From positions 248,001 through 312,000 of the forward strand of contig RQYE01000005.1 of assembly GCA_004010535.1 (NCBI GenBank): 64,000 nt of DNA, written 5' to 3'. The translations under genes were made by a program, and so were the position numbers. Within the stretch, counting starts at the first letter, position 1. Each line of letters starts with the position of its first letter. This DNA is from Coriobacteriales bacterium OH1046 (GTDB taxonomy: Bacteria; Actinomycetota; Coriobacteriia; Coriobacteriales; Atopobiaceae). Below the pieces are notes generated by a model. That model was not told where the DNA came from and made no database searches. It worked only from the letters and a program-made list of their open reading frames with translations. Positions 1,146-16,300 of this stretch are shown piece after piece.

Positions 1146-1155
1146 CGTATCCCTC

Positions 1156-2649
1156 CTACACCATCAAGGCGATGAGATCCTGCTCGGTCATGTCGGGCCG
1201 ACGCTCGAGCTCACCCGCGATCTTGCGGTCCTTCATCACGATGATGCGGTCGCACATGCCGATAAGCTCCATGATCTCCTCCGAAATGACGAGAATCGCC
1301 TTCCCTTCCCGGCGCATCATATCGAGGAGCGCATAGATGTCGGCTTTGACCTTGATATCGATGCCGCGGGTCGGCGAGTCGAGCACGAGGATGTCCGATC
1401 CTGCACCCAGCCAGCGGGAGAGGACGACCTTCTGTTTGTTGCCCCCCGACAACGCCGAAACGAATTGGTCGACCCCCACCATCTTGGTGCTCATGACGTT
1501 GGCGTAGGTGGCGGCGAAGTCGCGTAACTCACCCGCGCGCAGGGGCAGGCCCATCCTGCGCAGCGAGGGGAGGGTGATGTTGTCCTGGATGGTGTCGTTG
1601 ATCAGCAGCGACTCGTTGTCGCGATCCTTGGACGCATAGGCAATGGAGTGGTTGATGGCCGTGTCGATGCTGTCGATAGGGGTGCCATCTCCAAGAACGA
1701 CTTCGCCGACGCGGTCGTACGACGCACCGAAGAGTGCCTTGCCCACCTCGTGCATACCGCACTCCGAGAGCCCCCCGATGCCCAGGATCTCTCCTTTGTG
1801 CAGGTCTAGGGACACCTCCTCCAGCTGTCCGGGAACCGACACCTTGCGCATGGAAAGCGCGACATCGCCCGTGAGGGGACATCCATAATCCTCGCGATAG
1901 TAGCGTTCGGACATCTGACGGCCGACCATGAGCGTCTTGAGCTTGCTCTCATCCACCTCGGACGCGCTGACGGTAGCGATGAACTCGCCATCGCGCAGAA
2001 TCGAGATGGTATCGGACATCATCAGCACCTCGGACATGTCGTGGCAGATGAAGATCACGGTACGCCCATCGTCGCGTACGGTCCGCATAACGTCGAACAG
2101 GATGTCGCGCCCGTTCTGCGAGAGTGCCGTGGTGGTCTCGTCCACCACGAGCACCTTGGGCTTGAACCACGTGGACTTGACGATCTCGACCAGCTTGCGA
2201 TCCTCGAAATTGTAGTGCTCTATGGGATCGGATGCCTTGATGCGGCCCAACCCATAGGAGTCGAGCAGCTCCTGCGCCTTCCGGTACATCGCCGGGGTGT
2301 TCTTGATACCGCGGCTCATGAACTGGTCCTCGTCGCCGAGGAACATGTTCTCGGCAACGGTCAGGCTATCGAGCGTGCCCTGCTCCTGGACGATGACGGC
2401 TGCCCCGAGGTGGTTGGCATCGACCTGGTTCTTGGGCACGATCTGCGCTCCATCGAGCTCGAAGGTCCCTTCTCCGATGGGGATGATGCCTGTCAGCATA
2501 TTGGTGAACGTGGACTTGCCCGAACCGTTCTCTCCGATCAGCGCATGGATCTCGCCCTTGGCGAAGTCGAGGGAGATATGGTCTACGGCATGCGTGGGCC
2601 CGAAGCGCTTGTCGATGCCCACGGCACGGAGCATGAGCTGCTTTGCCAT
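1156..2649 (-). CDS. Sugar ABC transporter ATP-binding protein, double domain (RbsA/MglA/AraG type)
   Basis: 497-residue duplicated ATPase, normal length for the sugar type. Domain 1 (about 1-245) has Walker A GENGSGKST and Walker B VLVVDETTTAL, but the usual LSGGQ-type signature is replaced by YNFEDRKLVEI. Domain 2 (about 255-497) has a degenerate Walker A region (GIGGLSECGMHEVGKALFG), which is normal for this family, with an intact signature LSGGNKQK and Walker B ILVLDSPTRGID. ATP hydrolysis in the cytoplasm drives uptake through the two flanking permeases. It lies 12 bases after the stop of the upstream permease and 10 bases before the next gene. The altered domain 1 signature is unusual. 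Confidence 0.9.
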   Translation of the reverse strand: MAKQLMLRAVGIDKRFGPTHAVDHISLDFAKGEIHALIGENGSGKSTFTNMLTGIIPIGEGTFELDGAQIVPKNQVDANHLGAAVIVQEQGTLDSLTVAENMFLGDEDQFMSRGIKNTPAMYRKAQELLDSYGLGRIKASDPIEHYNFEDRKLVEIVKSTWFKPKVLVVDETTTALSQNGRDILFDVMRTVRDDGRTVIFICHDMSEVLMMSDTISILRDGEFIATVSASEVDESKLKTLMVGRQMSERYYREDYGCPLTGDVALSMRKVSVPGQLEEVSLDLHKGEILGIGGLSECGMHEVGKALFGASYDRVGEVVLGDGTPIDSIDTAINHSIAYASKDRDNESLLINDTIQDNITLPSLRRMGLPLRAGELRDFAATYANVMSTKMVGVDQFVSALSGGNKQKVVLSRWLGAGSDILVLDSPTRGIDIKVKADIYALLDMMRREGKAILVISEEIMELIGMCDRIIVMKDRKIAGELERRPDMTEQDLIALMV

Positions 2650-2661
2650 GGCAAACCCCCC

Positions 2662-3612
2662 CTACTTGACCACGGCGCCGTTGAAGCGTTTGGTGGTAAG
2701 CGTGACGATGGCCAGCAGCGTGACGCCCGTGACGATGTTGTTGATGGTGGTCGGCACGCCCATGGCCACGAACCCCGCGAAGATCATGGAGACGATGTAC
2801 TCTCCGATGACGATGGAGACCACCGGATGCCCGTACTTCCTGAACGCCAGCCCGAAGAAGGTACCCATCAGCGGCTTGAAGTTGAGCGATTGGGAGAGCA
2901 TGCCCGTTTGCGGAGTCTGCGCGGTGCCATAACCCAAATAGAGGATGGACATGATGCCGACGAACAGGCCGCAGAGGGCGAAGGCGATGGCCTTGTATCG
3001 GTCGACGTCGACACCCATGTTCTTGGCTACCAGCTCGTTCGCCCCGATGGCGTTGGTATAGGTGCCCACCTTGGTGTACTTGAGCAGAAACCCGCACAGG
3101 CAGAAGGCTGCGAGCGCCACGACGAGGTTCCAGGGGTACGACCCGAAGGCGTTGTGGCTCGCCGGCAGGCGCGTCCCGTTGACGTTGGCCATCCACACCG
3201 ACGCGGCTTCGTACAGCAGCGAAAGGCCGGTGGTAACGATGATCGAGGGGATGCGCATCTTGATGTAGGCGACTCCGTTGAAAATGCCCAGCAAAAGGCC
3301 CACGAGCACTGGGACGACCACTACGGAGACGTAGCCTAGCCATGGAATGAAAGCAATGGCCGCCAACTCGGCCAATATCATCATGGCGCCTATGGAGAAA
3401 TCGAAGAGCCCCATGACGCAGATGAAGTAGAGGCCGCAACCTCCGACGGCATAGATAAGCGCGGTTTGCAGATATGAGACCAGCTTCTCCGGATCCCCGA
3501 AGTTCGAAGGCGTAAGCAGCTTGAAAACAGCCCAGATGGCTATGGCGATGAGCAATAGCAGCCCTACGCCATAGTATCGGCTCTGCCTCAGCTTCTTGAG
3601 AGCAGCTCGCAT
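2662..3612 (-). CDS. Sugar ABC transporter permease (second permease of the operon)
   Basis: 316-residue permease of the RbsC/AraH type, a distant paralogue of the product of 162-1145. The motif GLFDFSIGAMMIL matches the D-[LF]-S-x-G element of the family, and a cytoplasmic loop with 'VAKNMGVDVDRYKAIAFALCG' type spacing precedes the last helices. I chose the ATG at 3612 because AAGGAAGG lies about 9 bases upstream and the product starts directly with a short basic stretch and a transmembrane helix. The longer upstream reading (to 3816) has no hydrophobic or conserved content. It is the second gene of the importer operon, about 100 bases after the binding protein. Confidence 0.85.
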   Translation of the reverse strand: MRAALKKLRQSRYYGVGLLLLIAIAIWAVFKLLTPSNFGDPEKLVSYLQTALIYAVGGCGLYFICVMGLFDFSIGAMMILAELAAIAFIPWLGYVSVVVVPVLVGLLLGIFNGVAYIKMRIPSIIVTTGLSLLYEAASVWMANVNGTRLPASHNAFGSYPWNLVVALAAFCLCGFLLKYTKVGTYTNAIGANELVAKNMGVDVDRYKAIAFALCGLFVGIMSILYLGYGTAQTPQTGMLSQSLNFKPLMGTFFGLAFRKYGHPVVSIVIGEYIVSMIFAGFVAMGVPTTINNIVTGVTLLAIVTLTTKRFNGAVVK

Positions 3613-3712
3613 GAAGGACTTCCTTCCTTGATGCCTGCTATGGATACGAATCCCAGTTGGATTGAGTGGAAGCACATGCGGGACCCGTGCCATGCACGGG
3701 TCCCGGGCACTG

Positions 3713-4900
3713 TTATGACGCGTGGCGCGCCATGACGTCCGCGATGGACAGTTTCGCGGCAGCCGCCTTGAGGGCATCGAAGTCAAGCGTGCCGAGCTCG
3801 CGCAACTCGTCGTCATCGTAGGGAGGCTGGTCTACGAAGTACTGCTTGTAGGCCTTGTATTCATCAACCGAAGAGACGAAGGCATACGGGAACAGGATCT
3901 CGTATCCGTAGTTGCCCGCCTGAACCGTGTAGTTGCCCTTGACGGCGTTGTAAACCAGCAGGAACGCAAAGAGCGGGTCGCAGAAGTGGCCACCCGATTC
4001 GGCATACATGCCACCGCTCTCCAGCTGGTCCTCGAGATCATCCAAGAAGTCGGTGGAAACCACCCGGATCTTGCCGGTAAGCCCCATGTTTGCCAGCTGG
4101 CCGATCGACCCAACCAGCGGGTCGCCGCCGCCGCCGGCAATAATCAGGGCGTCCATGGTGTTGTCCTGGTTGTAGAACTGCTGGGTGATGTTGGCGCCTT
4201 CGGAGGAGGACGTGTTGGCATAGACCGGCTCGGAGAGCGTCATCTTGTCGGAGGGGTTCGCGGCATTCCAAGCCTCGACGCCGTTCTTATAGCCCTGCCA
4301 ACGCAGCTGGAAGGTAGCATCGCCCACGGTCCATGCCTCAAGCTTGATGTTGCGTGAACCCTTTTGGATTCCTTCCGGAACATCATCGCGATCCTGAGAG
4401 AGCAATTCGATAAGCTTCTCGCCATTGCCCACCTCATCCTCATGGACCGAGCCCACGAAGTACTCGGAGTTCTTGGCAACCTCGAAGACTTCCGGCGAAT
4501 CCGTCTCGGAAATCATCCGATAGAACTGGGCGAGATAGACGCCGTTCTCGTTGCAGGTGCTGATAGCGGAGGCCATCTCCGAGTCTGCCGAGTTGCATAC
4601 CACGATACCCTGGCAGCCTGCGGCGCACAGCGTCTCGATGGAGGCGGTCACCTGCTCGGACACATGCCCTTGATCGACGACCGAGACGATCTCGGCATCG
4701 CCCAACGCTTCAGCCGCACGCTTGATGATATCGACGGAAAGGCTTCCGAGCGCATCGGTCGAACTCCAAATGGAGACGCCTATCTTGATCTTCTCGCCCG
4801 AGCTGCCGTCGCCCGATCCATTGCAGGCCGCAAGGCCGAGCGCTCCCATACCGGTTAGGCCGGCCATCCGCAGGAAATTACGACGAGACATGTTCTTCAT
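3713..4900 (-). CDS. Sugar ABC transporter substrate-binding lipoprotein
   Basis: 395-residue periplasmic-binding-protein-like lipoprotein (Peripla_BP_4 type). The N-terminus has a twin-arginine-like SRRNFLRM followed by a hydrophobic stretch and a lipobox ending LGLAAC, so it is probably exported and lipid-anchored outside the membrane. The mature part begins with a Gly/Ser linker and then KIKIGVSIWSS, a typical first strand. The ATG at 4900 is favoured over a GTG at 4921 because GGAAGGAG sits 8 bases upstream. It is the first gene of the operon leading to araA. The family binds pentoses, hexoses or autoinducer-2, so arabinose is only the contextual best guess. Confidence 0.87.
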   Translation of the reverse strand: MKNMSRRNFLRMAGLTGMGALGLAACNGSGDGSSGEKIKIGVSIWSSTDALGSLSVDIIKRAAEALGDAEIVSVVDQGHVSEQVTASIETLCAAGCQGIVVCNSADSEMASAISTCNENGVYLAQFYRMISETDSPEVFEVAKNSEYFVGSVHEDEVGNGEKLIELLSQDRDDVPEGIQKGSRNIKLEAWTVGDATFQLRWQGYKNGVEAWNAANPSDKMTLSEPVYANTSSSEGANITQQFYNQDNTMDALIIAGGGGDPLVGSIGQLANMGLTGKIRVVSTDFLDDLEDQLESGGMYAESGGHFCDPLFAFLLVYNAVKGNYTVQAGNYGYEILFPYAFVSSVDEYKAYKQYFVDQPPYDDDELRELGTLDFDALKAAAAKLSIADVMARHAS

Positions 4901-4988
4901 TGCTGATGCTCCTTCCGTCACGCATCCATCCGCACCACCCCAAAACCCCGATGATTTTGGGAATTTCGTCCGGCACAGCTCAAACGCA

Positions 4989-5054
4989 GATAATGTTCAT
5001 ATAAATGTTTTATCTCAAAAAAATGGGACAAAAACAGTAATATGAATAATTATC
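4989..5054. promoter_or_regulatory. AT-rich control region with long inverted repeat upstream of the sugar ABC operon
   Basis: GATAATGTTCATAT (4989-5002) and ATATGAATAATTATC (5040-5054) form an inverted repeat that differs by one inserted base, with 37 bases between the arms. It lies 90-155 bases upstream of the binding-protein start, in the most AT-rich part of a 520-base gap (4901-5420) without a gene. This is where the minus-strand promoter should be. A repressor or activator binding two spaced sites is the natural reading, but the regulator is not identified. The rest of the gap, apart from the hairpin at 5369-5395, shows nothing I can name. Confidence 0.45.
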
Positions 5055-5368
5055 TCCTTTTTCTTTGATTGCGCCGCTTAGTTACGGTATACACTATGTT
5101 TTTTTACTGTTCATTATCGATGGGACAATCGGTAGTTTACAGCCGGTAAAAGGTATATTTTACCCTTATCATATCAAGTGTTTTCTTCTTTGTTTATATT
5201 TCGTCACCATGCACTTGCCTCCCAGCATCGGCATAGGACGAGAATCCGGAGGCCGGATGATCTTGCCGATGGCATGGAAAAATCAGCCGTTGCGATGCCG
5301 GGGCACGGCACGGAAGATCCCCTGTCCGCCAATCGAGGAGAGGGGATTGCTCAGCCCTGCCGGAGCGC

Positions 5369-5395
5369 GTGACAAGGGGACAGGTCATTTGTCAC
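5369..5395. repeat. REP-like hairpin (GTGACAA / TTGTCAC)
   Basis: GTGACAA (5369-5375) and TTGTCAC (5389-5395) are perfect inverted arms around a 13-base loop GGGGACAGGTCAT. The GGGGACAGGTCATTTGTC core resembles short palindromic elements that are dispersed in many bacterial genomes near REP-associated transposases. I see only this one copy in the window and no transposase, so the assignment is tentative. Confidence 0.35.
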
Positions 5396-5420
5396 GGGGT
5401 CCGACAAAGGAGCAGGCCCC

Positions 5421-5904
5421 ATGCCGCGCAGGCTCCCTTTCCGCAGCACAGCCCCCGGCGACTGCGCGGCCGTTCTCTACGCCGCGAGCTTTGCGCTCGC
5501 GGTTTTCGTGAGCTTGCTCATCTTGATCGCGACCGTGCCCGACCACTTCTCTGACGCGCTCGACGGGCTCTTCTCGCCCCTTGCACACGTGGGCCTACGC
5601 GGCCATGCGATAGCCGTGGTCATGACCCTTATGCTGCACTTTACTCCCGTCCTCGCCGACAGGGCCTCCGCCATCATAGACGATCAGTCCATGCGCGACG
5701 GCAAGCTTTGACGAGAACGGCGTCATCGCACGCGTGCGCGCCACCGTGCCTGTGGTCGTGGCACTCTTCGCAAGCGGCCTGCGCCATATCAAAGGGTTCT
5801 CGCTCGCCTTCATCGATGCAATCGTACTTCTGTCTTAGAGGGTACCAACTCGGCACCGTCCGCTCTACCGTAAAATGGATACGTATGCACTTGTCGATTT
5901 ACTA
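5421..5904 (+). pseudogene. Degraded ecfT (ECF transporter transmembrane subunit) remnant
   Basis: The first frame (5421-5711) reads through hydrophobic helices to LMLHFTPVLADRASAIIDDQ, which is the conserved EcfT/CbiQ segment (R-F-I-P-x-L-x-x-E-x-x-x-I-x-x-A-Q-x-A-R-G). The frame then closes, and the expected continuation appears in another frame from 5707 (VIARVRATVPVVVALFASGLRH, stop at 5836), followed by PTRHRPLYRKMDTYALVD resembling the R-T-R-x-R-x-L region after the second coupling motif. The N-terminal half of a normal 250-270-residue EcfT is absent and the first Ala-Arg-Gly motif is lost (QSMRDGK). This is a truncated, at least once frameshifted pseudogene, separate from the intact ecfT at 58514-59296. 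Confidence 0.5.
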
Positions 5905-5937
5905 TGCTTTTTCAGGCAGTTAATCTATTCAATATTG

Positions 5938-5955
5938 TTTTATATCATCATAAAA
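5938..5955. promoter_or_regulatory. Inverted repeat in the GntR gene promoter region
   Basis: TTTTAT (5938-5943) and ATAAAA (5950-5955) are perfect arms around ATCATC, 32 bases upstream of the GntR start codon, in AT-rich DNA. It is a candidate autoregulatory site of the GntR/HutC protein, inferred from position only. Confidence 0.25.
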
Positions 5956-5986
5956 TAATCAGTCATTATATCGAGGGGTTATCTGT

Positions 5987-6724
5987 ATGAATGACCAGCC
6001 AGATCTGCTCTATGCTCAAATCGAGAACGATCTCCGCCAGAAGATCATTTCCGGTGAGCTCGCAGTTGGTGTGAAAATCCCTACCGAATTCGAGTTGTGC
6101 AAAACGCATTCGGTAAGCCGCATCACCGTTCGCCGTGCTATCCAGAACCTTGTCGATGAGGGCATACTCTATCGGCTTCGCGGGCGCGGCACGTTCGTGG
6201 CGGCTCCCAAGCGCGAGATCCGCAAGGGTTCGAAAAGCCATTTCGGCTACCACGCATTCTCCGACAACGGCCCCTCGCCTTGCCGCATCATCGAGAAGCG
6301 GGCTTTTCCCGCCGACGGAAAGCTCGCCCGTAAGCTCGAGATTGGCGAGGGCACAGAAATACAGCTCGTCCGCCGCATCATGTTCGAAGACAACCTGCCG
6401 ATCGGCATCGACGAGGTTTATGTCCCCGTTTCGATCATCCCCGACTTCCTCGATACCATGCGCGAGGATGTCCACCTCTACGAGCTGCTCGAGAACCACT
6501 ATGCAGTCCAAGTAGGCGTGGAGGAGCTCAAAATCGATGTGGCCATCGCCCGCGAGGACGAGGCGAAGCTGCTCTCATGCATAAACGGCGCCCCGCTCTT
6601 CCTACTTGACAAGACCATGCGCGCGAAGGATGGGACGCTCGTGCACTACTCTCGCTCGCTCCTCCGAGGTGACCGCGCGAGCTTCGTCTTCTCCATCCAA
6701 GATGGGCGCATCCTTGAACGCTAA
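5987..6724 (+). CDS. GntR-family transcriptional regulator, HutC subfamily (UTRA domain)
   Basis: 245-residue DNA-binding regulator. Residues about 5-73 are a winged helix with the GntR signature (LRQKIISGELAVGVKIPTE ... SRITVRRAIQNL ... GILYRLRGRGTFVA). Residues about 90-240 form a UTRA ligand-binding domain with KRAFPADGKLARKLEIGEGTE-type spacing. HutC-type regulators usually bind a sugar phosphate or similar metabolite and leave the operator. The ATG follows GAGGGG by 9 bases. It points toward gldA, the last gene of the minus-strand PTS operon, so it may control that operon or the ABC importer on its other side. Which one is not decided by the sequence. Confidence 0.9.
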   Translation: MNDQPDLLYAQIENDLRQKIISGELAVGVKIPTEFELCKTHSVSRITVRRAIQNLVDEGILYRLRGRGTFVAAPKREIRKGSKSHFGYHAFSDNGPSPCRIIEKRAFPADGKLARKLEIGEGTEIQLVRRIMFEDNLPIGIDEVYVPVSIIPDFLDTMREDVHLYELLENHYAVQVGVEELKIDVAIAREDEAKLLSCINGAPLFLLDKTMRAKDGTLVHYSRSLLRGDRASFVFSIQDGRILER

Positions 6725-6808
6725 TCAAGGAATATAGGGCGGAGACAACGAGAAGGGGGCCATTGCCCGCTCGGATGCTCCGCGAGAGAGGGCATAAGAT
6801 TCTACAGA

Positions 6809-7906
6809 TCACAGATGCGCCACACAGCCAAGCGCATCGGCAACGCGCATGAGATCTACCACACCGGCAACATCACAGATCGCCGTAGGACTCGCCGCCC
6901 ATGATTCTGCAGCCAGAGCCGCCTCGGCGATCTTCTCGAGATCTTCCCGAGAGGGGTCGAGGCCAAGCGCCCCGAAGGTAATGGGGAGACCACACCGCAC
7001 ACAGAACGAGATCACCCGATCGATCTCCTCAGCCGGATAGTCCTCGGCGATGAGCAAGCAAAGCGTGCCGAACGCCACGCGCTCGCCGTGCATGGCACGC
7101 TCGCCCTCGGGAATAGCCGTTATAGCGTTGCCGATTCCGTGAGCGATAGAACAGCCGACATTCTCGAACCCTATGCCCGAGAGCAGAATGTTCGCTTCCA
7201 CCACGTTCTCGAAAGCGGGCGTAGGAACCTTGAGATCACAGGCAACTAGTGCGGCGGGAGCATCGGCAAAGAGCGTTTCGAAGCAGGCGCGCGCAATCGC
7301 CCTGCCGGCAATGCTGGCCCTCCCTTGCCCGGTATCGCACCACACGTAGTTAGCATGGCCCGTATGATCGTTGGAAAGTCCTTCGTAGTAGGTGGAGAGA
7401 GCATCACCGATACCCGAGATAAGGAAGCGACGCGGAGCAGCGGCTATCACGCGCGTGTCTACGAGCACCAGATCGGGGTTAGCCCGATGGATCACGATCT
7501 CGTTCATCTCCCCCTCATCGGAATAGAGGATCGACATGGCACTCGTAGGCGCATCAGTTGACGCAATAGTGGGGCATACGACGAGTGCGACGTGCTTTTT
7601 GGACGCAATCATCTTGGCAACATCGATAACCGTGCCACCACCTACGGAGATGATGACATCGAACCCGTCACCTATACGAGTCTCTATCCGCTCGACGGAG
7701 TGACGGGTGATATCGCCCTCAAAGAGCACCGTCTCATATACGTCATCGTCGTCATACGCCGCATAGAGTGCAGGCGCAAGCAAGCCCTGCACGTACGAAT
7801 CGACTAGGAACAGGTGGCTCCCGCCGAATCTATCGGCATAGCGGCGCACGTCGGCAAGAACGCCGGGCCCCTGAATGTAGTGGCCTACTGAACCCCAGCT
7901 ACGCAT
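6809..7906 (-). CDS. gldA: Glycerol dehydrogenase (iron/zinc-type alcohol dehydrogenase family)
   Basis: 365-residue NAD-dependent dehydrogenase that interconverts glycerol and dihydroxyacetone. Family marks are ISVGGGTVIDVAKM (dinucleotide binding), PTIASTDAPTSAMSILY, SGIGDALSTYYE (metal Asp) and the two metal His in CSIAHGIGNAI and ERAMHGERVAFG. Length is typical for GldA. I start at the ATG at 7906, with AGGAAGGG about 10 bases upstream; the longer reading to 8110 runs inside the upstream aldolase gene. It lies 16 bases after that aldolase. The aldolase-gldA pair mirrors the talC/fsaB-gldA arrangement of E. coli, where dihydroxyacetone from the aldolase is the natural substrate. Confidence 0.92.
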   Translation of the reverse strand: MRSWGSVGHYIQGPGVLADVRRYADRFGGSHLFLVDSYVQGLLAPALYAAYDDDDVYETVLFEGDITRHSVERIETRIGDGFDVIISVGGGTVIDVAKMIASKKHVALVVCPTIASTDAPTSAMSILYSDEGEMNEIVIHRANPDLVLVDTRVIAAAPRRFLISGIGDALSTYYEGLSNDHTGHANYVWCDTGQGRASIAGRAIARACFETLFADAPAALVACDLKVPTPAFENVVEANILLSGIGFENVGCSIAHGIGNAITAIPEGERAMHGERVAFGTLCLLIAEDYPAEEIDRVISFCVRCGLPITFGALGLDPSREDLEKIAEAALAAESWAASPTAICDVAGVVDLMRVADALGCVAHL

Positions 7907-7922
7907 GTGAACCAGTCCCTTC

Positions 7923-8531
7923 CTAAAATGCCATATCTTTGAGCATGGTAAGGTTGACGGTGACGTTTTGGGCGCCTGCCATAAGGGCGCGTTCCACGTC
8001 GCCTGGCACCTTGAGCGAGGCGGCGCACACCATGCAGCCGATGCCGTACGCATCGAAGGCCCGTCGGATCGCGCGCACAACCTCGATGCCATCACCACCG
8101 CACTTGTCAAGGCGGCTCACGTACACAGCCACGCAGACCGCCCCCGCCATGGCGGCGAGAAGCGCCTGATTCACATCGAACACCGCCGTGCACGATACCC
8201 GGATGCCCAGGTTCCTGAGCACCGGAATGGCCTTGTACCCCTCAGGACATGAGGGGATCTTGACGAGGGTGTTACCGGAAACCTCTGCGACGATGCGCTG
8301 CGCATCCTCCACCATCTCCCCGCAAGTATCGCCTAGGACCTCAAGATAGAACGGCACCTCGTCGCCTACAGCCGAGCGTATCTCGCGGGAGCGGGAGAGG
8401 AAGGTGGCACGCCCTCCCGTAAGGTCCTTCGCCGCCACCGAGGGATTGTCGGCGTAACAGTTGATGGGAAAGAGCGCCGAGGCCTCTCGAACCTCATCGA
8501 TGTCGAACGTGACCAGGCAGAACTCGAGCAT
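7923..8531 (-). CDS. Fructose-6-phosphate-aldolase/transaldolase-like protein, C-terminally short
   Basis: 202-residue class I aldolase of the small transaldolase (FSA/TalC) family. The Schiff-base lysine is K91 in NTLVKIP, and CTAVFDVNQALLAAMAGA, VAVYVSRLDKCGGDGIEV and AASLK are the conserved barrel strands. It is about 20-30 residues shorter than its neighbour and ends at LTMLKDMAF. It therefore lacks the last helix (consensus F-x-x-D-W-x-x-x-F-G) that packs against the adjacent subunit in FSA decamers. It lies 74 bases downstream of the full-length copy. It may be a partner subunit, a different specificity, or a copy losing function; the catalytic core is intact. Confidence 0.85.
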   Translation of the reverse strand: MLEFCLVTFDIDEVREASALFPINCYADNPSVAAKDLTGGRATFLSRSREIRSAVGDEVPFYLEVLGDTCGEMVEDAQRIVAEVSGNTLVKIPSCPEGYKAIPVLRNLGIRVSCTAVFDVNQALLAAMAGAVCVAVYVSRLDKCGGDGIEVVRAIRRAFDAYGIGCMVCAASLKVPGDVERALMAGAQNVTVNLTMLKDMAF

Positions 8532-8605
8532 AGAAGCTCCTTCTCAAAGGATGACCCCGTCTTGGGAGGGGCTGACGGGGCCACACAGGAGGGAACGGGC
8601 GATCC

Positions 8606-9304
8606 CTAGGAGACCATGTTGGCGATGCGGACGCCGACGCCGAACAGGCCCTCCCAGTCGGATTTGAACGTCTCGAGCGTCCCCGCTGTCATGGGATGCA
8701 CGGCCATCTGCTCGAGCAGCTCGAGGTTGAGGGCGATGTTATCGGCGCCCGCCTCGATGGCACGCTCCACCTCGCCCGCGCTCTTGATGGAGGCGGCGCT
8801 CACGACGCAGTCGATTCCGTGTTCGAGGAACGCCTGCTTGATGCGACGGATGGTCTCGATGCCGTTTCCGCCGTTGCGATCGAGTCTGCTCACGTACACG
8901 GCGACGTATTCGGCACCGGCAAGCGCAGCGAGCATGGCCTGGTTGAAGGTATACACCGCCGTACACGAGGTGCGGATGCCCTCGGCCTTGAGCACGGCGA
9001 TGGCTTTATAACCCTCAGGGCATGCGGGGATCTTCACGAGCGTATTGCCAGGAACGGCGGAAACCATGGCGCGGGCATCCTCAACGAGCTCCTCGGCCAC
9101 ATCGCCCATGGCCTCGAGGAAGAAGGGCATCTCATCGCCGATGACCTCGCGGATATCGCGGGCATTCTGGATGAACGACTTGCCGGTGCCCTTGAGACAG
9201 TTCACCGCGATCGTGGGGTTCATGCTGTAGCAGCCGAGCGGGTATACCTTGCTAGCGGCCTCTACCATCTCAAGGTCGCCGGTATCAAGACAGAACTCAA
9301 GCAT
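8606..9304 (-). CDS. Fructose-6-phosphate aldolase-like (FSA/TalC) full-length copy
   Basis: 232-residue small transaldolase-family enzyme. FSA members split fructose 6-phosphate into dihydroxyacetone and glyceraldehyde 3-phosphate by a Schiff-base mechanism. The lysine is K91 (NTLVKIP). Other family marks are GIRTSCTAVYTFNQAMLAALAGAEYVAVYVSR (read in pieces), SAASIKSAGEVERAIEAGA and the C-terminal KSDWEGLFG helix missing from its paralogue. The ATG at 9304 lies 9 bases after the PTS IID stop. Together with gldA it fits a cleavage pathway for a PTS-imported sugar phosphate. True transaldolase activity cannot be excluded from sequence alone. Confidence 0.88.
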   Translation of the reverse strand: MLEFCLDTGDLEMVEAASKVYPLGCYSMNPTIAVNCLKGTGKSFIQNARDIREVIGDEMPFFLEAMGDVAEELVEDARAMVSAVPGNTLVKIPACPEGYKAIAVLKAEGIRTSCTAVYTFNQAMLAALAGAEYVAVYVSRLDRNGGNGIETIRRIKQAFLEHGIDCVVSAASIKSAGEVERAIEAGADNIALNLELLEQMAVHPMTAGTLETFKSDWEGLFGVGVRIANMVS

Positions 9305-9313
9305 GCCCGGCTC

Positions 9314-10135
9314 CTAACCGAAGATCCCAAGCAGGCCTGCCAGGATGCCGATCACCATGATGCCGATGATCTGCGTGAGCACGGGCATGCCTTTCTTGTT
9401 GAGCGCATAGAGAGCGCCGAGCGCGCAGACGGGCAGCAGGCGGGGGAAGATGGAATCGAAGGTCTCCTGCAGCGAGAACAGCGTGCCATTGATATCGAAC
9501 GCGATAGGCGTGGTGAGACCCACGTTGGTGGCCACCATGGCACCGATCACCATGAGACCCACGATAGAGAGTGCGGTGGTGAGCTTGTGCATGACATCGG
9601 CATCGGAAATTTGGCCGATGATGTTGGCACCTAATCCGTAACCGTACTTCACGCCGAGCCAGCGGAGGGCGATGGTGGGCACGTTGTATACGAGCAGGAA
9701 CAGCAGGGGGCCGGCGAGTGAGCCGCTCATACACAGGCCAGCGGCGATGCCGGTAGCGATGATGCGCAGGGTACCGGCGATGAGGGAGTCACCGATACCG
9801 GCGAGCGGCCCCATGAGGGCGACTTTCATCGAGGAGATGGACGAGGTCTCGAAGTCATCGTTGTTGGCGTTCTCCTCCTCCATGGCGGCGGAGATGCCGA
9901 CGATAAGGGGCTGCATGGTAGTCTGGCAGTTGTAGAACTCCAAATGGCGCTTGTAGGCGGCTATGCGGTCCTCGGAGTTGTCGTAAAGCTTCTTAATGGT
10001 GGGGATCATCGCGAAGGCGAAGGCCATGTGCTGCTGACGCTCGAAGTGCCAAGCATGGCTTGTGGTGAAGGTACGCCAGAAGATACTGTTAAGCTCTTTT
10101 TGCGTGAGCTTCTTCTCGTTAGAATTCGTTGTCAT
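9314..10135 (-). CDS. PTS mannose-family component IID
   Basis: 273-residue membrane component IID of a mannose/fructose/sorbose-type phosphotransferase system. Family marks are LNSIFWRTFTTSHAWHFERQQHMAFAFAMIP at the N-terminus (seen in pieces), HLEFYNCQ (usual H-L-x-F-F-N-T), MEEENA and ALMGPLAGIGDSL, then C-terminal membrane segments. It forms the translocation unit with IIC. I use the ATG at 10135, preceded by GGAGG at 7 bases; a TTG at 10141 is in frame. It overlaps the IIC stop by 17 bases, which implies translational coupling. Confidence 0.93.
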   Translation of the reverse strand: MTTNSNEKKLTQKELNSIFWRTFTTSHAWHFERQQHMAFAFAMIPTIKKLYDNSEDRIAAYKRHLEFYNCQTTMQPLIVGISAAMEEENANNDDFETSSISSMKVALMGPLAGIGDSLIAGTLRIIATGIAAGLCMSGSLAGPLLFLLVYNVPTIALRWLGVKYGYGLGANIIGQISDADVMHKLTTALSIVGLMVIGAMVATNVGLTTPIAFDINGTLFSLQETFDSIFPRLLPVCALGALYALNKKGMPVLTQIIGIMVIGILAGLLGIFG

Positions 10136-10898
10136 CGTCAACCTCCGCAGCTACGATCTGGGAATCCTTGGGAATGAAAATGTGGGCCATGTATAGCACA
10201 CCGACGATCACAATAGCGAAACAGACGATACCCAGGATGGGGACGCCGAGATAGGCTGCAAGGAGGAAGCCGAGCAGCAGAAAGACAGCGGTTTCCTTGG
10301 AGGCAATCATGGTGATGAGCTGTGCGAAGCCCACGGCGGGAAGGATACCGGTGGCGATGCCAATGCCAGTGGTGAGCCAGTCGGGGATGGCGGCCACGAA
10401 GGCGGAGACCGCCTCGCCGCCGAACATGAAGGCCACGAAGGCGATCACGGCGAAGGTGACATCGAAGATGAAGCCGTTGGCCAAGAAGATCATGGTAATG
10501 CCGCGGTCGTTGTCGTCCTCGGCGAAGCGATCAGCGGAACGCGCCATGATCGGTGTGATGACGCCGTAGAACAGATTCACAATAAACGCCGAGAGCACGG
10601 CGGCGGGCATGGCGATGGTGACGGCTGTGTCGATACCGTTGCCCGTGGTGATGGCGAAAGCCGTGCCCAGCACGGAGCCCACGATCATGTCGGGCGGGAT
10701 GGAGGCGCCAATGGCCTGCATACCCATGAACACGAGCTCGAGCGAGAAGCCGATGATGGTGCCGGTCGAAGCATCGCCCAGAGCGAGGCCAACGAGAGCC
10801 CCGAGGACAATCGGACGACCGAGCATTGCGGTACCGACAAAGTAGTCGGCCTTGCCGATAAACACGATGAGCCCTATGAGGAACGCTTGGAATGCCAT
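10119..10898 (-). CDS. PTS mannose-family component IIC
   Basis: 259-residue polytopic IIC permease. Conserved family features include RPIVLGALVGLALGD close to the N-terminus, the glycine-rich ELVFMGMQAIGASIPPD segment and GTAFAITTGNGID. It carries the sugar through the membrane together with IID while IIB phosphorylates it. It starts at the ATG at 10898 and lies 29 bases after the IIB stop. The C-terminus overlaps the IID gene by 17 bases. Confidence 0.93.
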   Translation of the reverse strand: MAFQAFLIGLIVFIGKADYFVGTAMLGRPIVLGALVGLALGDASTGTIIGFSLELVFMGMQAIGASIPPDMIVGSVLGTAFAITTGNGIDTAVTIAMPAAVLSAFIVNLFYGVITPIMARSADRFAEDDNDRGITMIFLANGFIFDVTFAVIAFVAFMFGGEAVSAFVAAIPDWLTTGIGIATGILPAVGFAQLITMIASKETAVFLLLGFLLAAYLGVPILGIVCFAIVIVGVLYMAHIFIPKDSQIVAAEVDDDNEF

Positions 10899-10927
10899 TG
10901 CTTCCCCTTTCTTTGTTGAGCCGTTTC

Positions 10928-11401
10928 CTACAGGTCTGACTCTGAGAGAACGAATTTCTTATCCTTTGCGACTTGCCTGACCTCCACCTCGATTCCGTCG
11001 CGAATGAGCCCGCGTACGAGCTCGCGCTCCTCGTCGTTCAGATGGACGGCGATGCCGAGCGTCTTGGTTGCGCCTTCCTTCTTCTCGGTACCTCCGAGGT
11101 TCAGCGAGGAAATCCCGCATGCACGCGCGATGCGCTCGGCATCCGCCACGCATCCAACGACGATGAGAAGTTCGTACTTATCGGTCACCCCACTTCGGAT
11201 GGCGGCGATCGAGTCTTCGACGCTCTTGATGACGAGCTTCACGCCTGAAGGCTTTGCGAGACGCATGGTCTTCATGCGGATCTCGTCCCTCGCAACGGCA
11301 TCCGAGACAACGAGGATGGCATTAGCTCCCAGCGTATGGCACCACGAGAACGCCACCTGGCCGTGCAGTAGTCTATGGTCCACTCTCAGAAGCTTGATCA
11401 T
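10928..11401 (-). CDS. PTS mannose/sorbose-family component IIB
   Basis: 157-residue cytoplasmic phosphocarrier. The N-terminus MIKLLRVDHRLLHGQV contains the family motif R-[IV]-D-x-R-L-x-H-G-Q, in which His13 is the phosphorylated residue. It accepts phosphate from IIA and passes it to the incoming sugar at IIC/IID. The ATG at 11401 follows GGAGG closely; an in-frame TTG lies just before it. It lies between the TIM-barrel gene and IIC in the operon. Confidence 0.93.
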   Translation of the reverse strand: MIKLLRVDHRLLHGQVAFSWCHTLGANAILVVSDAVARDEIRMKTMRLAKPSGVKLVIKSVEDSIAAIRSGVTDKYELLIVVGCVADAERIARACGISSLNLGGTEKKEGATKTLGIAVHLNDEERELVRGLIRDGIEVEVRQVAKDKKFVLSESDL

Positions 11402-11413
11402 CAATCCTCCCCC

Positions 11414-12268
11414 CTAACGTGCGCTTTCGGCGCAGACACTATTTCCGAGGCACTTCTCGAAGAGCACCTTGGTCTCTTCCATGTAGATCGCGGGGTCGTG
11501 AAAGCTCATGGGATGGACGTACTCCATCGAGAATCCACCTTTGTAGTCGTTGCAAGCGAAGGTCGCCAGATCTGCGACCATGTCGCGCGTGCCGTGGCCC
11601 CAAGGCATATGGCCGGTAGGGGTGCCGTCGACGAAGTGGCAGTGCACGAGATCGTGACCGAACACGTCGAACCACTGGCCTATGGTCTCCCCCGCACTTC
11701 CCATTGCCCCGAAGTCCAGAGTTAGCTTGAGGTTCTCTCGATCAACGCGGTCCTTGAGACTAGCGATATCCTCGATTGTGGGAGCGATCTGCGAAGAGAC
11801 GGCCCAGATGCTCTCGAGTGCCAGTGTGATGCCACGAGGAGCTGCATAGTCGGCAAGGCGGGAGAGCATGGCAGCGCTTCTCGTACGAGCTTCCTCCACA
11901 GATTCGTCGTAATAGTTCCAGCCCGGCGTTACTAGCACGAGAGGCGAGCCGACCAGCTCTGCGAGGTCGATGACCCGTTCGAAGTAGGCGCGGACGTTGG
12001 CGATGAGCAGCTCACCCCTCGCTGCCATATTGTTGGGCTTGGGATTGTTCTGCTCTCCGCAGATGCAGGAGAGTTCCACACCGTACTCCTCCATAAGCGC
12101 CACGAGCCGGGAGGGATCCTCGCTGTACTGCGCGTTGATGAGGAAATGCTGTGGGCACAGCCAGAGTTCGGCAAACGAGAATCCATGCTCGGCGCAGGCG
12201 GCAAAGAAGCTCTCCAAGTCGTAGTAGCGCCAGTTAATGTTCATGGGATAGAGGCTCGCCGCATCCAT
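11414..12268 (-). CDS. TIM-barrel sugar-phosphate isomerase/epimerase (xylose-isomerase-like)
   Basis: 284-residue member of the AP-endonuclease-2/xylose-isomerase-like barrel superfamily, which includes tagatose/allulose 3-epimerases and UlaE-type 3-epimerases. The four metal ligands expected for the epimerase branch are visible in order: Glu in ALESIWA, Asp in TLDFGAMG, His in VHCHFVDG and Glu in FSMEYVHP. I start at the ATG at 12268, one base after the IIA stop codon, with GGAGG upstream. It sits inside a PTS operon ahead of two aldolases, so it probably converts the imported sugar phosphate into the aldolase substrate. The exact substrate is not recognisable. Confidence 0.8.
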   Translation of the reverse strand: MDAASLYPMNINWRYYDLESFFAACAEHGFSFAELWLCPQHFLINAQYSEDPSRLVALMEEYGVELSCICGEQNNPKPNNMAARGELLIANVRAYFERVIDLAELVGSPLVLVTPGWNYYDESVEEARTRSAAMLSRLADYAAPRGITLALESIWAVSSQIAPTIEDIASLKDRVDRENLKLTLDFGAMGSAGETIGQWFDVFGHDLVHCHFVDGTPTGHMPWGHGTRDMVADLATFACNDYKGGFSMEYVHPMSFHDPAIYMEETKVLFEKCLGNSVCAESAR

Positions 12269-12269
12269 C

Positions 12270-12680
12270 TCAGAAATCCTCCGCTTCCCCAGCGGACGCT
12301 GCGAGGTCGTTGCAGAGGAGAATAGCCTCGCGGCACTCCCCAATCGCCTCATCGATATCCTGCGCAGCCAGCTCATCCGACGAGAGCAGCTGCACGAGCA
12401 GAGGCATGTTCATACCGCATACGAGGAAGAACTCGTAGTCAGAGAGGGCAACCATGAACTCGTTGTTCACTGAACCACCGAAGATGTCGGTCACCACAAC
12501 GACAGTATCCTCGGGCGCATACATTGCGAACAGGGCTTTAATCTTAGTGCGTATCGTAATGTCGGGGTCAACATAGGCGCAGAGAGTATCCACGTTGTCG
12601 AGCTGTCCGAGGATGACCTGGAGAGTGTCTTTCATCCCTTCAGCGAGATGCCCATGCGACGCAAGGACGAACCGTAGCAC
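12270..12680 (-). CDS. PTS mannose-family component IIA
   Basis: 136-residue cytoplasmic IIA phosphocarrier. The phosphorylated His is His9 in VLASHGHLAEGM, and DTVVVVTDIFGGSVNNE is the second conserved loop (D-x-x-G-G-S-x-x-N). It takes phosphate from HPr and gives it to IIB. The start is GTG, preceded by AAGGAG at 5 bases. It is the first gene of the eight-gene operon that ends with gldA. It is the only intact mannose-family IIA in the window and might also serve the IIA-less PTS genes at 41.7-46.9 kb. Confidence 0.92.
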   Translation of the reverse strand: MLRFVLASHGHLAEGMKDTLQVILGQLDNVDTLCAYVDPDITIRTKIKALFAMYAPEDTVVVVTDIFGGSVNNEFMVALSDYEFFLVCGMNMPLLVQLLSSDELAAQDIDEAIGECREAILLCNDLAASAGEAEDF

Positions 12681-12926
12681 GAATTCTCCTTTATTATACG
12701 TTGTCCTATAACAATTACAAAAAAGATGATATTACAACGCATAATAAAATCAAGAAGAAATTTGTCTTATTTGTTATATCTATATCACGTATATGCTTTT
12801 CGTTTATTCGGATCTACACACGAAGCATGCCCATAAGTCCCGCTATCTGCAGCTTTGCTACGAAAGAAGTTTTCGTACGTAAAAACCGATAGAATAGCGG
12901 CGTCATCTCAAGCGTTATGGGTTGTC
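12681..12926. promoter_or_regulatory. AT-rich promoter region of the PTS/aldolase operon
   Basis: This 246-base gap is strongly AT-rich compared with both sides and must contain the minus-strand promoter of the PTS operon. The palindromic site TTGT-CCTATA-ACAA at 12701-12714 lies 21 bases upstream of the IIA start and is a candidate GntR-type operator. A TATAAT (12698-12693 on the minus strand) overlaps the region just before the ribosome binding site, probably too close to the start to be the only promoter. No gene is seen in the gap. Confidence 0.4.
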
Positions 12927-13214
12927 TCACCACCCGTGCGAGGTCAGATGCCAGCCTCCGCAGAAATCGCAGTGGTAGCAGCGCAGGCCGCGCGTACCGT
13001 GCTCCTCGCAGCGCACGATGGCATCCTCGGCATCCGCGCGCGTGTCGTAGCGCATCTTGCGCTCGCAGGATCGTGCCCGGTGCGCTGCCTCCCGCCGGGA
13101 ATCGAGCTCGTCCTGCCCGGCCTCCGCCCGCGCGAAGAGACCGTCGAGGCTGGTGAACCCCGCCTCGAACTCCTTGCGCTGCTTCCTTGTCGCCGAGCGC
13201 TTCCTGCTGGGCAT
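12927..13214 (-). CDS. Small cysteine/histidine protein of unknown function
   Basis: 95-residue soluble basic protein. The N-terminus is rich in Lys/Arg. The C-terminal part has a cysteine-containing motif ending GLRCYHCDFCGGWHLTSH (Cys-x2-Cys-x2-Cys-Gly-Gly-Trp-His), preceded by RYDTRADAEDAI, a combination seen in small actinobacterial and phage proteins. The Cys/His set suggests a zinc-binding knuckle. The ATG at 13214 follows GGAGATGAG. It is divergent from purL. I do not know its function; nucleic-acid binding is only a guess. Confidence 0.6.
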   Translation of the reverse strand: MPSRKRSATRKQRKEFEAGFTSLDGLFARAEAGQDELDSRREAAHRARSCERKMRYDTRADAEDAIVRCEEHGTRGLRCYHCDFCGGWHLTSHGW

Positions 13215-13331
13215 CTCATCTCCACGAATCCATGGCGCGGCGTCTATCCCCTGTCAACTGTACCCGTAACGGAAGTCCGAACTGCCGTAGAATGGAGGCG
13301 TTGCGTGCACCTCACGAGAAAGGCATGATCC

Positions 13332-16300
13332 ATGGTCTCACGCGTCTACGTCGAGAAGAAGCCCGGATTCGACCTTGAGGCGGAAGCCCTCGCACGCGAG
13401 CTGCACGATCTCGTGGGCATCTCCACCCTCTCGGGGCTGCGCCTCATCAACCGCTACGATGTCGAGGGCGCATCGGACGAGCTCTTCGCGCGCTGCATCG
13501 CATCGGTCTTCTCCGAGCCGCAATCCGATACGGCCACGTTCGAGATGCCCGACACGGGAGGTGCCCGCGTCTTCGCCGTCGAGTTCCTGCCCGGTCAGTT
13601 CGACCAGCGCGCCGACAGCGCCAGCGAGTGCATCCAGCTCATCAGCCAAGGCGAGCGCCCCCTCGTGCGCTCCGCAAAGGTCTACGTGCTCGAAGGCGCC
13701 CTCACGCAGGATGACGTCGATACCGTCAAGCGCTACGTCATCAATCCCGTCGAGGCCCGCGAGGCATCGCTCGCGCTGCCCGAGACGCTCGTCTCCAGCT
13801 ACCCCGCACCCGAGATGGTCGAGACGCTCGAGGGCTTCCTCGAACTCGACCAAGACGGCCTCGCCGCCTTCATCGACGAGCGCGGCCTGGCGATGGATCG
13901 TGCCGACATCGCCTTCTGCCAGAGCTACTTCGCAGAAGAGGGACGGGCCCCCACGATCACCGAGATCAGGATGATCGACACTTACTGGTCGGACCATTGC
14001 CGCCACACCACCTTCGGCACCGTGCTCGAGGACATCGAGATCGACGACGCGGCGGTCCAAGCCGCCTTCGAGCGCTACCTCGCCGTGCGCGAGGAGCTCG
14101 GCCGCACGGATAAGCCCATCACCCTCATGGACATGGGCACCATCGGGGCCAAGTATCTCAAGCACGCGGGCCGCCTCACCGGCCTCGACGAGTCCGAGGA
14201 GATCAACGCCTGCACGGTCAAGGTGACCGTCGATGTGGACGGCGAGGATCAGGATTGGCTTCTCCTCTTCAAGAACGAGACCCACAACCATCCTACCGAG
14301 ATCGAGCCGTTCGGCGGGGCTGCAACCTGCATCGGCGGTGCCATCCGCGATCCGCTCTCGGGCCGCTCCTACGTGTATCAGGCCATGCGCGTGACCGGTG
14401 CAGCCGATCCCACGGTTCCCGTCGCAGAAACCCTGCCCGGCAAGCTGCCCCAGCGCAAGCTCGTGACCACGGCCGCCGCCGGCTACTCCTCCTACGGCAA
14501 CCAGATCGGCCTCGCCACGGGCCAGGTCTGCGAGCTCTACCACCCGGGCTATGCCGCCAAGCGCATGGAGATCGGCGCCGTGGTGGGGGCCACGCCCGCA
14601 CGCCATGTCCGCCGCGAGACGCCTGCCCCCGGAGATGTGATCGTGCTCCTCGGCGGACGAACCGGACGGGACGGCATCGGCGGTGCCACGGGCTCCTCCA
14701 AAGCCCACAAGCAGACGAGCCTGGAGACCTGCGGAGCCGAGGTCCAGAAGGGCAACGCGCCCGTGGAGCGCAAGCTCCAGCGCCTCTTCCGCCGCGAAGA
14801 TGCCTGCCGCCTCATCAAGCGCTGCAACGACTTCGGCGCCGGCGGCGTCTCCGTGGCCATCGGCGAGCTGGCCGACGGTCTCTCCATCGACCTCGACAAG
14901 GTCCCCAAGAAGTACGAGGGACTCGACGGCACCGAGCTCGCCATCTCCGAGAGCCAGGAACGCATGGCGGTGGCCCTCGCACCCGAGGACGTCGATGCCT
15001 TCATCGGCTATGCCCATGAGGAGAACCTCGAGGCCACGCCCGTCGCCACGGTCACGGCCGGGAAGCGCCTGAGCATGACGTGGGGCGGAAAGGTCATCGT
15101 CGACATCTCCCGCGCCTTCCTGAACAGCAACGGGGCGCCCAAGCATGCCCGGGTGCATGTCGCCGGACCTGCGCCCTACCAGCGCACCTGGGAGGGCGCG
15201 TCTTTCTCGGAGAAGATGCGCTTACTCGTGGGCGATCTCAACGTGGCCTCCAACAAGGGCCTCTCCGAGCGTTTCGACTCCACCATCGGGGCGGCCACCG
15301 TCCTCATGCCCTTCGGCGGCAAGCACCAGCTCACGCCCGCCATGGCCATGGCGGCCAAGATGCCGGTGGACGGCGAGACCACCACGTGCTCCGGCATGGC
15401 CTGGGGTTTCAACCCCTACCTCATGAGCGCGAACCCCTTCACGGGGGCCTACCTCTCCGTGGTCGAGAGCATCGCGCGTCTCGTCTCCGCGGGTTTTCTG
15501 CACAAGGACTTCTACCTCACCTTCCAAGAGTACTTCGAACGCCTACGCGATGTGCCGGAGCGCTGGGGCAAGCCTGCGGCGGCCCTGCTCGGCGCGCTCA
15601 TGGCCCAGCTCGACCTGGGCATCGGCGCTATCGGCGGCAAGGACTCGATGTCGGGCAGCTTCGAAGAGCTCGATGTACCGCCCACGCTGGTCTCCTTCGC
15701 CGCTGCGGTGGGAGAAGTCTCCCGCGTAACCTCGCCCGAGTTCAAGAACGCGGGCTCGCCGGTCATTGCCGTGGTGCCGCGCTACCGGGCGGACGGCATG
15801 ACGCCCGAGGCGGGATCGCTCCTCTCCGCGCTCTCCTACGTGGAAGACCTCATCGGCAGCCGGGATGCCATCGCCGTCTCCACGCCCGGCTACGGCGGCG
15901 TGGCCGAAGCTGCTTTCAAAATGTGCGTGGGCAACGGCATCGGCCTCGCCGTGGAGGAAAGCTTTGACCAGGAGTCGCTCTTCTGCCCCGCATACGGCAG
16001 CTTCCTCGTGGAGCTCGCGCCCGGAATCGAGCTTCCCGAGGCGCCCGAAGGCGTCAGCGTATCGCTCTTCGGCGCCACGACGGCCTCCTACACGTTCTCT
16101 GCCTGCAAAGAGGAGCTTGCGCTCGCCGAGCTCCAAGAGCTCTGGGAGAGCGCCCTCGAATCCGTCTTCCGCTATCGCGGGGCCGGCGAGCAGGTCAAGG
16201 CCCTATCCTTCCCGTGCGGGAAACCGCACGGCTACAGCGGAGGCGCCCTCGCACGCCCCCGCGTCATCATTCCCGTCTTCCCCGGCACCAACTGCGAGTA

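Follow-up and report, generated by a model that had tools for sequence, protein, structure and literature searches.

Which sugar is broken down by the products of an eight-gene operon in Coriobacteriales bacterium OH1046, and by which route? The operon occupies positions 6809-12680 on the minus strand of the window, the 64,000-nucleotide stretch of contig RQYE01000005.1 that was analyzed here. It encodes, in collinear order, component IIA of a mannose-family phosphotransferase system (PTS), a putative sugar 3-epimerase (EPI), the PTS components IIB, IIC and IID, two aldolases related to fructose-6-phosphate aldolase (FSA1 and FSA2) and a GldA-type dehydrogenase. In a preliminary description of the locus the eight genes had been listed as collinear with overlaps or short gaps, and all of them were recovered in that order. 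They had been read as a route by which a rare ketohexose is imported, epimerized and cleaved, and the resulting dihydroxyacetone reduced to glycerol. The PTS-epimerase-aldolase-GldA unit was borne out and appears to be co-regulated, and a general route of PTS uptake, C3 epimerization, class I retro-aldol cleavage and reduction is plausible; the version with a rare ketohexose and dihydroxyacetone was only partly supported. The genes are tentatively read here as a catabolic cassette under GntR control that degrades a ketose modified at C1, most likely an Amadori-type compound or a related 1-substituted fructose or psicose. The sequence establishes the gene set, its conservation, the protein families, the residue changes and a shared operator-like motif, and from these the activities, the substrate and transcription are predicted.

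Conservation and distribution of the cassette

The gene order IIA-EPI-IIB-IIC-IID-FSA1-(FSA2)-GldA with a convergent gntR gene is repeated in loci L035-L044, with protein identities of 50-97%. Carriers are, among others, Olsenella, Thermophilibacter and Tractidigestivibacter, along with a record labelled Collinsella provencensis; Thermophilibacter provencensis, Olsenella sp. An270 and Tractidigestivibacter montrealensis are carriers available in culture. Locus L085 is a further cassette. The database search for the same gene order, which had been suggested as a check in the preliminary description, thus found the cassette with its own gntR in at least 10 other loci of the Coriobacteriia. Because both order and orientation recur in these loci, the operon-like gene set is a conserved unit and no chance grouping.

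EPI orthologues scoring above 500 bits are present in 11 of 398 genomes of the class, and FSA1 in 12 of 140 genomes of the family, which represent four of its 35 genera; nine of these 12 also harbor FSA2. Ten of the 11 genomes with an EPI orthologue are among the 12 with FSA1; the eleventh, G198, is not a member of the family, to which the FSA1 survey was confined. By these counts EPI and FSA1 occur as a pair, from which FSA2 may be missing. A search for the cassette aldolase beyond the Coriobacteriia, which covered Actinomycetota genomes and plasmid records but no Bacillota, gave no match with E <= 1e-45 among 396 Actinomycetota genomes, save the genome studied here and one divergent family relative, and plasmid records yielded only FSA-type matches, at 36-39% among the matches listed.

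The epimerase

The Glu-Asp-His-Glu metal ligands noted earlier for the epimerase correspond to E152, D185, H211 and E249 of EPI, none of which varies among its orthologues. Its assignment to the allulose/tagatose type was not upheld, as the score against the D-psicose/D-tagatose 3-epimerase family (NF051856) was 29.9 bits with a cut-off of 300, and the nearest homologues are found in fructosamine-type operons. The best NCBIfam match was fructoselysine 3-epimerase with 60 bits, below the cut-off of 305. Foldseek ranked the isomerase Art22 first for the AlphaFold model of EPI (pLDDT 92.5), followed by tagatose epimerase, the 3-keto-glucoside epimerase YcjR and UlaE. Since the model resembles sugar epimerases in general, the predicted fold by itself picks no substrate, and the gene neighbourhoods are more telling. 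At the site of His188 of the Pseudomonas tagatose epimerase, EPI harbors an alanine, as do E. coli FrlC and the epimerases of deglycase operons, and an equivalent of Arg217 was not apparent. His188 and Arg217 have both been listed as key residues (PMC7008614).

Inspection of 39 loci with EPI homologues in the Coriobacteriia left 38 besides the cassette L085. An FrlB-like deglycase is encoded in 31 of the 38, mostly together with a mannose-family PTS or an FrlD-like kinase: in 23 loci this SIS-domain deglycase is nearly always joined by a mannose-family PTS, and in eight it occurs with FrlD-like kinases and an AbgT-like transporter. Three loci combine a class II aldolase with a mannose-family PTS, and the other four are cut short or ambiguous. 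The deglycases resemble FrlB only distantly (70-93 bits, below the cut-off); the kinase passes the cut-off for fructoselysine 6-kinase. The nearest EPI homologues in plasmid records likewise adjoin SIS proteins, plus either PTS genes or a PfkB kinase and amino-acid ATP-binding cassette (ABC) genes; the homologue on a Klebsiella plasmid (31%) is of the latter kind. In the phylogenetic tree the deglycase-operon epimerases group weakly with FrlC (81/93, with a long branch for FrlC), and the cassette epimerases form separate branches. Gene neighbourhoods and residues together suggest that EPI groups with the FrlC-type ketosamine epimerases.

The survey also revealed other arrangements of EPI-like genes. 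On conjugative IncF plasmids of Klebsiella (L150:2855-8712), genes for a SIS protein, a PfkB kinase, an amino-acid ABC transporter and an EPI-like epimerase resemble a mobile fructosamine operon, and EPI-like matches occur on 31 Klebsiella plasmid records. Tandem pairs of EPI-like genes are found in kinase/deglycase operons (L087:7160-8850, L088:7723-9401 and L108:5739-7414), in which the second epimerase forms a clade of its own (100/99). A second type of mannose-family PTS operon without deglycase (L094:2351-9848, L114:1817-9448 and L115:1306-8039) encodes IIA, IIB, a class II aldolase, an EPI homologue (25-30%), IIC, IID, a mannitol-dehydrogenase-like protein and a zinc alcohol dehydrogenase, with an aldo/keto reductase added in L094 and L114.

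The aldolases

Both aldolases belong to family PF00923, though the earlier phrase of two FSA-type aldolases masks a genuine difference, the loss of the active-site Asp6 from FSA2. Their equation with FSA was not supported: they scored 171.6 and 144.5 bits against TIGR00875 (fructose-6-phosphate aldolase), both under the cut-off of 245.95, and together they make up a single clade (100/98), distinct from both canonical FSA and TalC-type proteins, in which FSA2 goes back to one old duplication (100/100). By the numbering of E. coli FsaA, canonical FSAs are marked by Q59, L107 and Y131 and TalC-type proteins by E59, N107, S129 and F131, whereas the cassette aldolases carry E59, S107, C108 and Y131, with S in FSA1 and C in FSA2 at site 163. 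The Lys85 nucleophile and the acid-base residue Tyr131 are invariant in FSA1 and FSA2. R134, S166 and K168 on the glyceraldehyde-3-phosphate side, which have been named as the acceptor-phosphate module (PMC13259622), are also retained in both. FSA1 additionally keeps D6 and T109 and is altered by Q59E, L107S and L163S, whereas FSA2 shows D6V, T26A, L107S and L163C and has lost the C-terminal helix. The canonical donor side of Asp6, Gln59 and Leu107 is therefore absent, since E59 and S107 occur in both proteins and Asp6 is replaced by Val in every FSA2 orthologue. Given these scores and the remodelled donor side, the dihydroxyacetone product proposed in the preliminary description was an assumption.

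In the laboratory, an L107A/L163A variant of FSA accepts bulkier donors and has a wider donor range (PMC9355150, PMC8097096), and D6 variants also broaden the donor range (PMC8097096, PMC13259622). A solved engineered FSA (8s7i) has L107C and L163C. The sole canonical-side FSA sampled without Leu107 is a divergent protein (L135:3142-3819, genome G007) with His57, Thr107 and Gln59, which adjoins a pyruvate formate-lyase-like sequence.

The C-terminal helix is missing from FSA2 in every lineage seen, and FSA2 is under purifying selection (omega 0.09-0.23). An intact barrel is predicted (pLDDT 92; TM 0.88-0.93 to TAL/FSA structures). A decaying pseudogene was ruled out by the frame, open in nine sequences, together with the omega values and the barrel-folded model. 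Perhaps FSA2 is an aldolase of a second specificity or a partner subunit.

The dehydrogenase and the genome context

GldA scored 349.6 bits against PRK09423 (glycerol dehydrogenase), over the cut-off of 336. It retains D121, D171, F245, H254 and H271 (E. coli numbering) at 36-39% identity, and thus its zinc ligands D171, H254 and H271 are intact. The surroundings of the second zinc ligand differ (ENVGCSIAHGIGN against ESGGLAAAHAVHN), which would be consistent with a different ketone or diol as substrate. The proposed use of glycerol as an electron sink is possible.

The genome (2.38 Mb, 98.6% complete) encodes a DhaK-DhaL-type fusion (L076, 596 aa), FGGY kinases, a canonical FSA and a TalC-type protein (L004); the named relatives of the genome belong to the Atopobiaceae and to other Coriobacteriia. 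DhaK is present in six of the 11 cassette genomes and its co-occurrence with the cassette is ambiguous; as it is absent from the other five, dihydroxyacetone kinase is no obligate partner of the cassette.

No SIS-domain ketosamine-6-phosphate deglycase is encoded in the cassette. A search of the 11 cassette genomes gave weak matches only (<30 bits) in seven, mostly to frames of about 620 aa that were read as GlmS. Two cassette genomes (G198 and G211) harbor a close PTS-type deglycase (75-79%), and the presence of both systems together argues against redundancy. That the cassette feeds a deglycase encoded elsewhere is unlikely, with seven of 11 genomes lacking one, though the genome studied here does have related genes: contig C2 (129418-150074 and 251085-255802) carries distant FrlB-like SIS genes and FrlD-like kinases, unlinked to the cassette.

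Proposed pathway and alternatives

In the proposed pathway, the mannose-family PTS would import the ketose and phosphorylate it at C6. EPI, to judge from its kinship and metal site, would then epimerize C3, as FrlC does on psicoselysine/fructoselysine. FSA1 would split the C3-C4 bond via a Schiff base, with glyceraldehyde-3-phosphate passing to glycolysis and a C1-substituted hydroxyacetone as the second product; the intact acceptor-phosphate side and the altered donor side point to this step. FSA2 may serve another donor here or act as partner subunit to FSA1. Finally, the GldA-type enzyme would turn the C1-substituted ketone into a vicinal diol and regenerate NAD+. Such a route would bypass the SIS deglycase on which the described fructosamine systems of bacteria considered here depend. 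A C1-substituted three-carbon ketone is preferred over dihydroxyacetone as the product on three indirect grounds: the kinship of EPI, the altered donor side next to a kept acceptor side, and the point that cleavage of fructose 6-phosphate would duplicate glycolysis. A more specific idea, less likely than not, is an aldolytic route for Amadori-type (C1-substituted) ketose phosphates that needs no deglycase and uses two FSA paralogues whose donor sides were remodelled in nature, in parallel to the laboratory L107/L163 and D6 variants. Several points weigh against an Amadori-type substrate. PTS component IID groups weakly with class II-aldolase operons and not with deglycase operons (86/82), which weakens this assignment, and no gene of the cassette handles the amino-acid remainder. 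EPI forms a group of its own, about 40% identical to the epimerases of deglycase operons and 22% to FrlC of E. coli, and may therefore have moved on to another substrate. Site 163 is variable (I, V, C, M) among canonical FSAs too, hence L107S, Q59E and D6V weigh most, and S107 could equally hydrogen-bond ordinary dihydroxyacetone.

A plain rare ketohexose is a serious rival, even if a rather less probable substrate. Allulose 6-phosphate or a similar ketose 6-phosphate supplied by the PTS would be converted to fructose 6-phosphate by EPI and cleaved by FSA into glyceraldehyde-3-phosphate and dihydroxyacetone, which GldA would reduce to glycerol. The metal ligands and fold of ketose 3-epimerases in EPI agree with this, as do Lys85 and Tyr131 in FSA1, the adjacency of fsaB, gldA and ptsA in E. 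coli and the pneumococcal FSA/GldA genes beside a PTS (PMC3302838); in the five cassette genomes without DhaK, dihydroxyacetone would moreover need another exit. However, glycolysis takes up fructose 6-phosphate as it is, which would make a dedicated aldolase superfluous; both aldolases have a donor side unlike that of the canonical FSA which the genome also encodes, and EPI falls outside the allulose/tagatose epimerase subfamily. The Glu59 of the cassette aldolases, the residue of the TalC-type clade and of transaldolases, raises the idea that FSA1 acts like a transaldolase, transferring three carbons from one sugar phosphate to another within a pentose or heptulose route, with GldA handling leakage. 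This is unlikely, because all cassette aldolases keep Tyr131 where the TalC-type clade has Phe, site 107 is Ser instead of Asn, and a separate TalC-type protein is present in the genome. Less likely still is phosphorylation at C1 by the PTS, as for L-sorbose, after which the aldolases would free dihydroxyacetone phosphate from a ketose 1-phosphate and leave glyceraldehyde for GldA. The closest PTS (with weak support) does come from operons that encode an EPI homologue beside a class II aldolase, and site 107 is polar in the cassette aldolases, but the conserved R134, S166 and K168 would then lack a phosphate partner, and no new basic residue was found among the donor-side positions examined.

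Regulation and gene layout

In five lineages, both IIA and gntR are preceded by a 20-bp palindrome with a consensus near GTTATATgATGaCATATAAC. The motif reached a Gibbs score of 247.9 compared with 152.7-166.7 in ten shuffled sets; this score overstates independence, since common descent partly accounts for the likeness of orthologous promoters. For the operon, the best promoter-like site is at 12720-12693. The palindrome shared by operon and gntR suggests control by GntR, which may act as a repressor.

A Pfam family was found for each of the eight operon genes and for gntR (Table 1). The preliminary inventory was right on the eight genes and overlooked the gntR/UTRA gene. Two starts in the mechanical open reading frame calls are too early: EPI most likely starts at 12268, 1 nt past the IIA stop, and not at 12376, and GldA most likely at 7906 and not at 8110, because orthologue ends and spacing favour the later starts. 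The genes overlap or are separated by 1-74 nt; the widest gap (74 nt) separates FSA1 and FSA2, and the IIC and IID frames share 23 nt. The cassette encodes a complete mannose-family IIA/IIB/IIC/IID set, and an enzyme I domain is encoded in the genome. Rfam gave zero matches across 4500-13400.

The window also contains a minus-strand sugar ABC operon (window 162-4921) for two permeases, an ATPase and a substrate-binding protein that matches xylF weakly. Just beyond the window edge is a gene for an FGGY-type kinase (G000:C14:245919).

Table 1. Features of the cassette, with positions in the window.
Feature	Position	Strand	Basis or remark
Putative GntR operator GTTATAGGACAACGTATAAT	12693..12712	-	Motif search; overlaps the -10 element of the operon's best promoter-like site
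Mannose-family PTS EIIA, 136 aa, GTG start, operon gene 1	12270..12680	-	PF03610 (E 1e-14); position same in all cassettes
EPI, putative xylose-isomerase-like TIM-barrel 3-epimerase, FrlC-related, 284 aa	11414..12268	-	PF01261
Mannose/sorbose-family PTS EIIB	10928..11404	-	PF03830
Mannose/sorbose-family PTS EIIC	10119..10898	-	PF03609
Mannose-family PTS EIID	9314..10141	-	PF03613
FSA1, class I aldolase, TAL/FSA family	8606..9304	-	PF00923, residue table, tree
FSA2, FSA1 paralogue, 202 aa	7923..8531	-	PF00923 (TAL_FSA), residue table, tree
GldA-type iron/zinc alcohol dehydrogenase, 365 aa	6809..7906	-	PF00465, PRK09423
GntR/UTRA regulator, convergent with operon, cassette member	5987..6724	+	PF00392 and PF07702
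Putative GntR operator ATTTTATGATGATATAAAAC, gntR upstream region	5937..5956	-	Motif search

Significance and comparison with known systems

The conserved operon suggests an undescribed breakdown route for a modified fructose in some gut bacteria related to Olsenella. Its epimerase is kin to enzymes acting on the glycated amino acids of cooked food, and in place of the usual amine-removing enzyme it has two remodelled aldolases and a reductase of the glycerol dehydrogenase type. The described bacterial routes for glycated amino acids that were considered end in a deglycase. If the proposed pathway is true, cutting of the carbon chain would yield another product in the gut, perhaps an excreted one, which would bear on the processing of cooked-food compounds. 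The pathway would further hint at what an FSA-type aldolase does in nature, a family with a role in E. coli that has been described as unknown or unclear (PMC6643234), and its natural FSA variants with changed donor sites could be of use in biocatalysis. The preliminary description knew of no pathway with exactly this gene set, and none was found in the literature searched here either, with most subscription journals outside its reach.

Among single enzymes, the D-tagatose/D-allulose 3-epimerases share the TIM barrel and the metal site with EPI, which differs in the Ala at His188, the lack of an apparent Arg217, its FrlC-like nearest kin and an identity of only 15-20% in structural alignments. 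FsaA and FsaB share the Schiff-base Lys85, Tyr131, Thr109, Arg134, Ser166 and Lys168 with the cassette aldolases, which differ by Q59E, L107S and L163S/C, by the D6V change and truncation of FSA2, and by forming a separate clade below the NCBIfam cut-off. Of the known operons, gfrABCDEF of Salmonella resembles the cassette in its mannose-family PTS and frlABCD of E. coli in its linked regulator and probably in its FrlC-type epimerase (PMC12675984), and EPI homologues adjoin deglycases of this kind in the same bacterial class. The cassette has neither the SIS deglycase nor an FrlD kinase and harbors two aldolases and GldA instead. In E. coli ptsA-fsaB-gldA and the pneumococcal SP0248-SP0253 PTS, pyruvate formate-lyase, FSA and GldA region, an FSA-family aldolase is likewise encoded by GldA and PTS genes. 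These systems differ in having other PTS types and no epimerase, the E. coli FSA residues are canonical, and pyruvate formate-lyase genes are located nearby, which are absent at the cassette. Having neither the deglycase of gfr/frl nor a canonical FSA as in the fsaB-gldA systems, the cassette is set apart from both relatives. Its parts thus belong to known families in a combination not found described, which would work partly like gfr/frl and partly like the fsaB-gldA-type operons.

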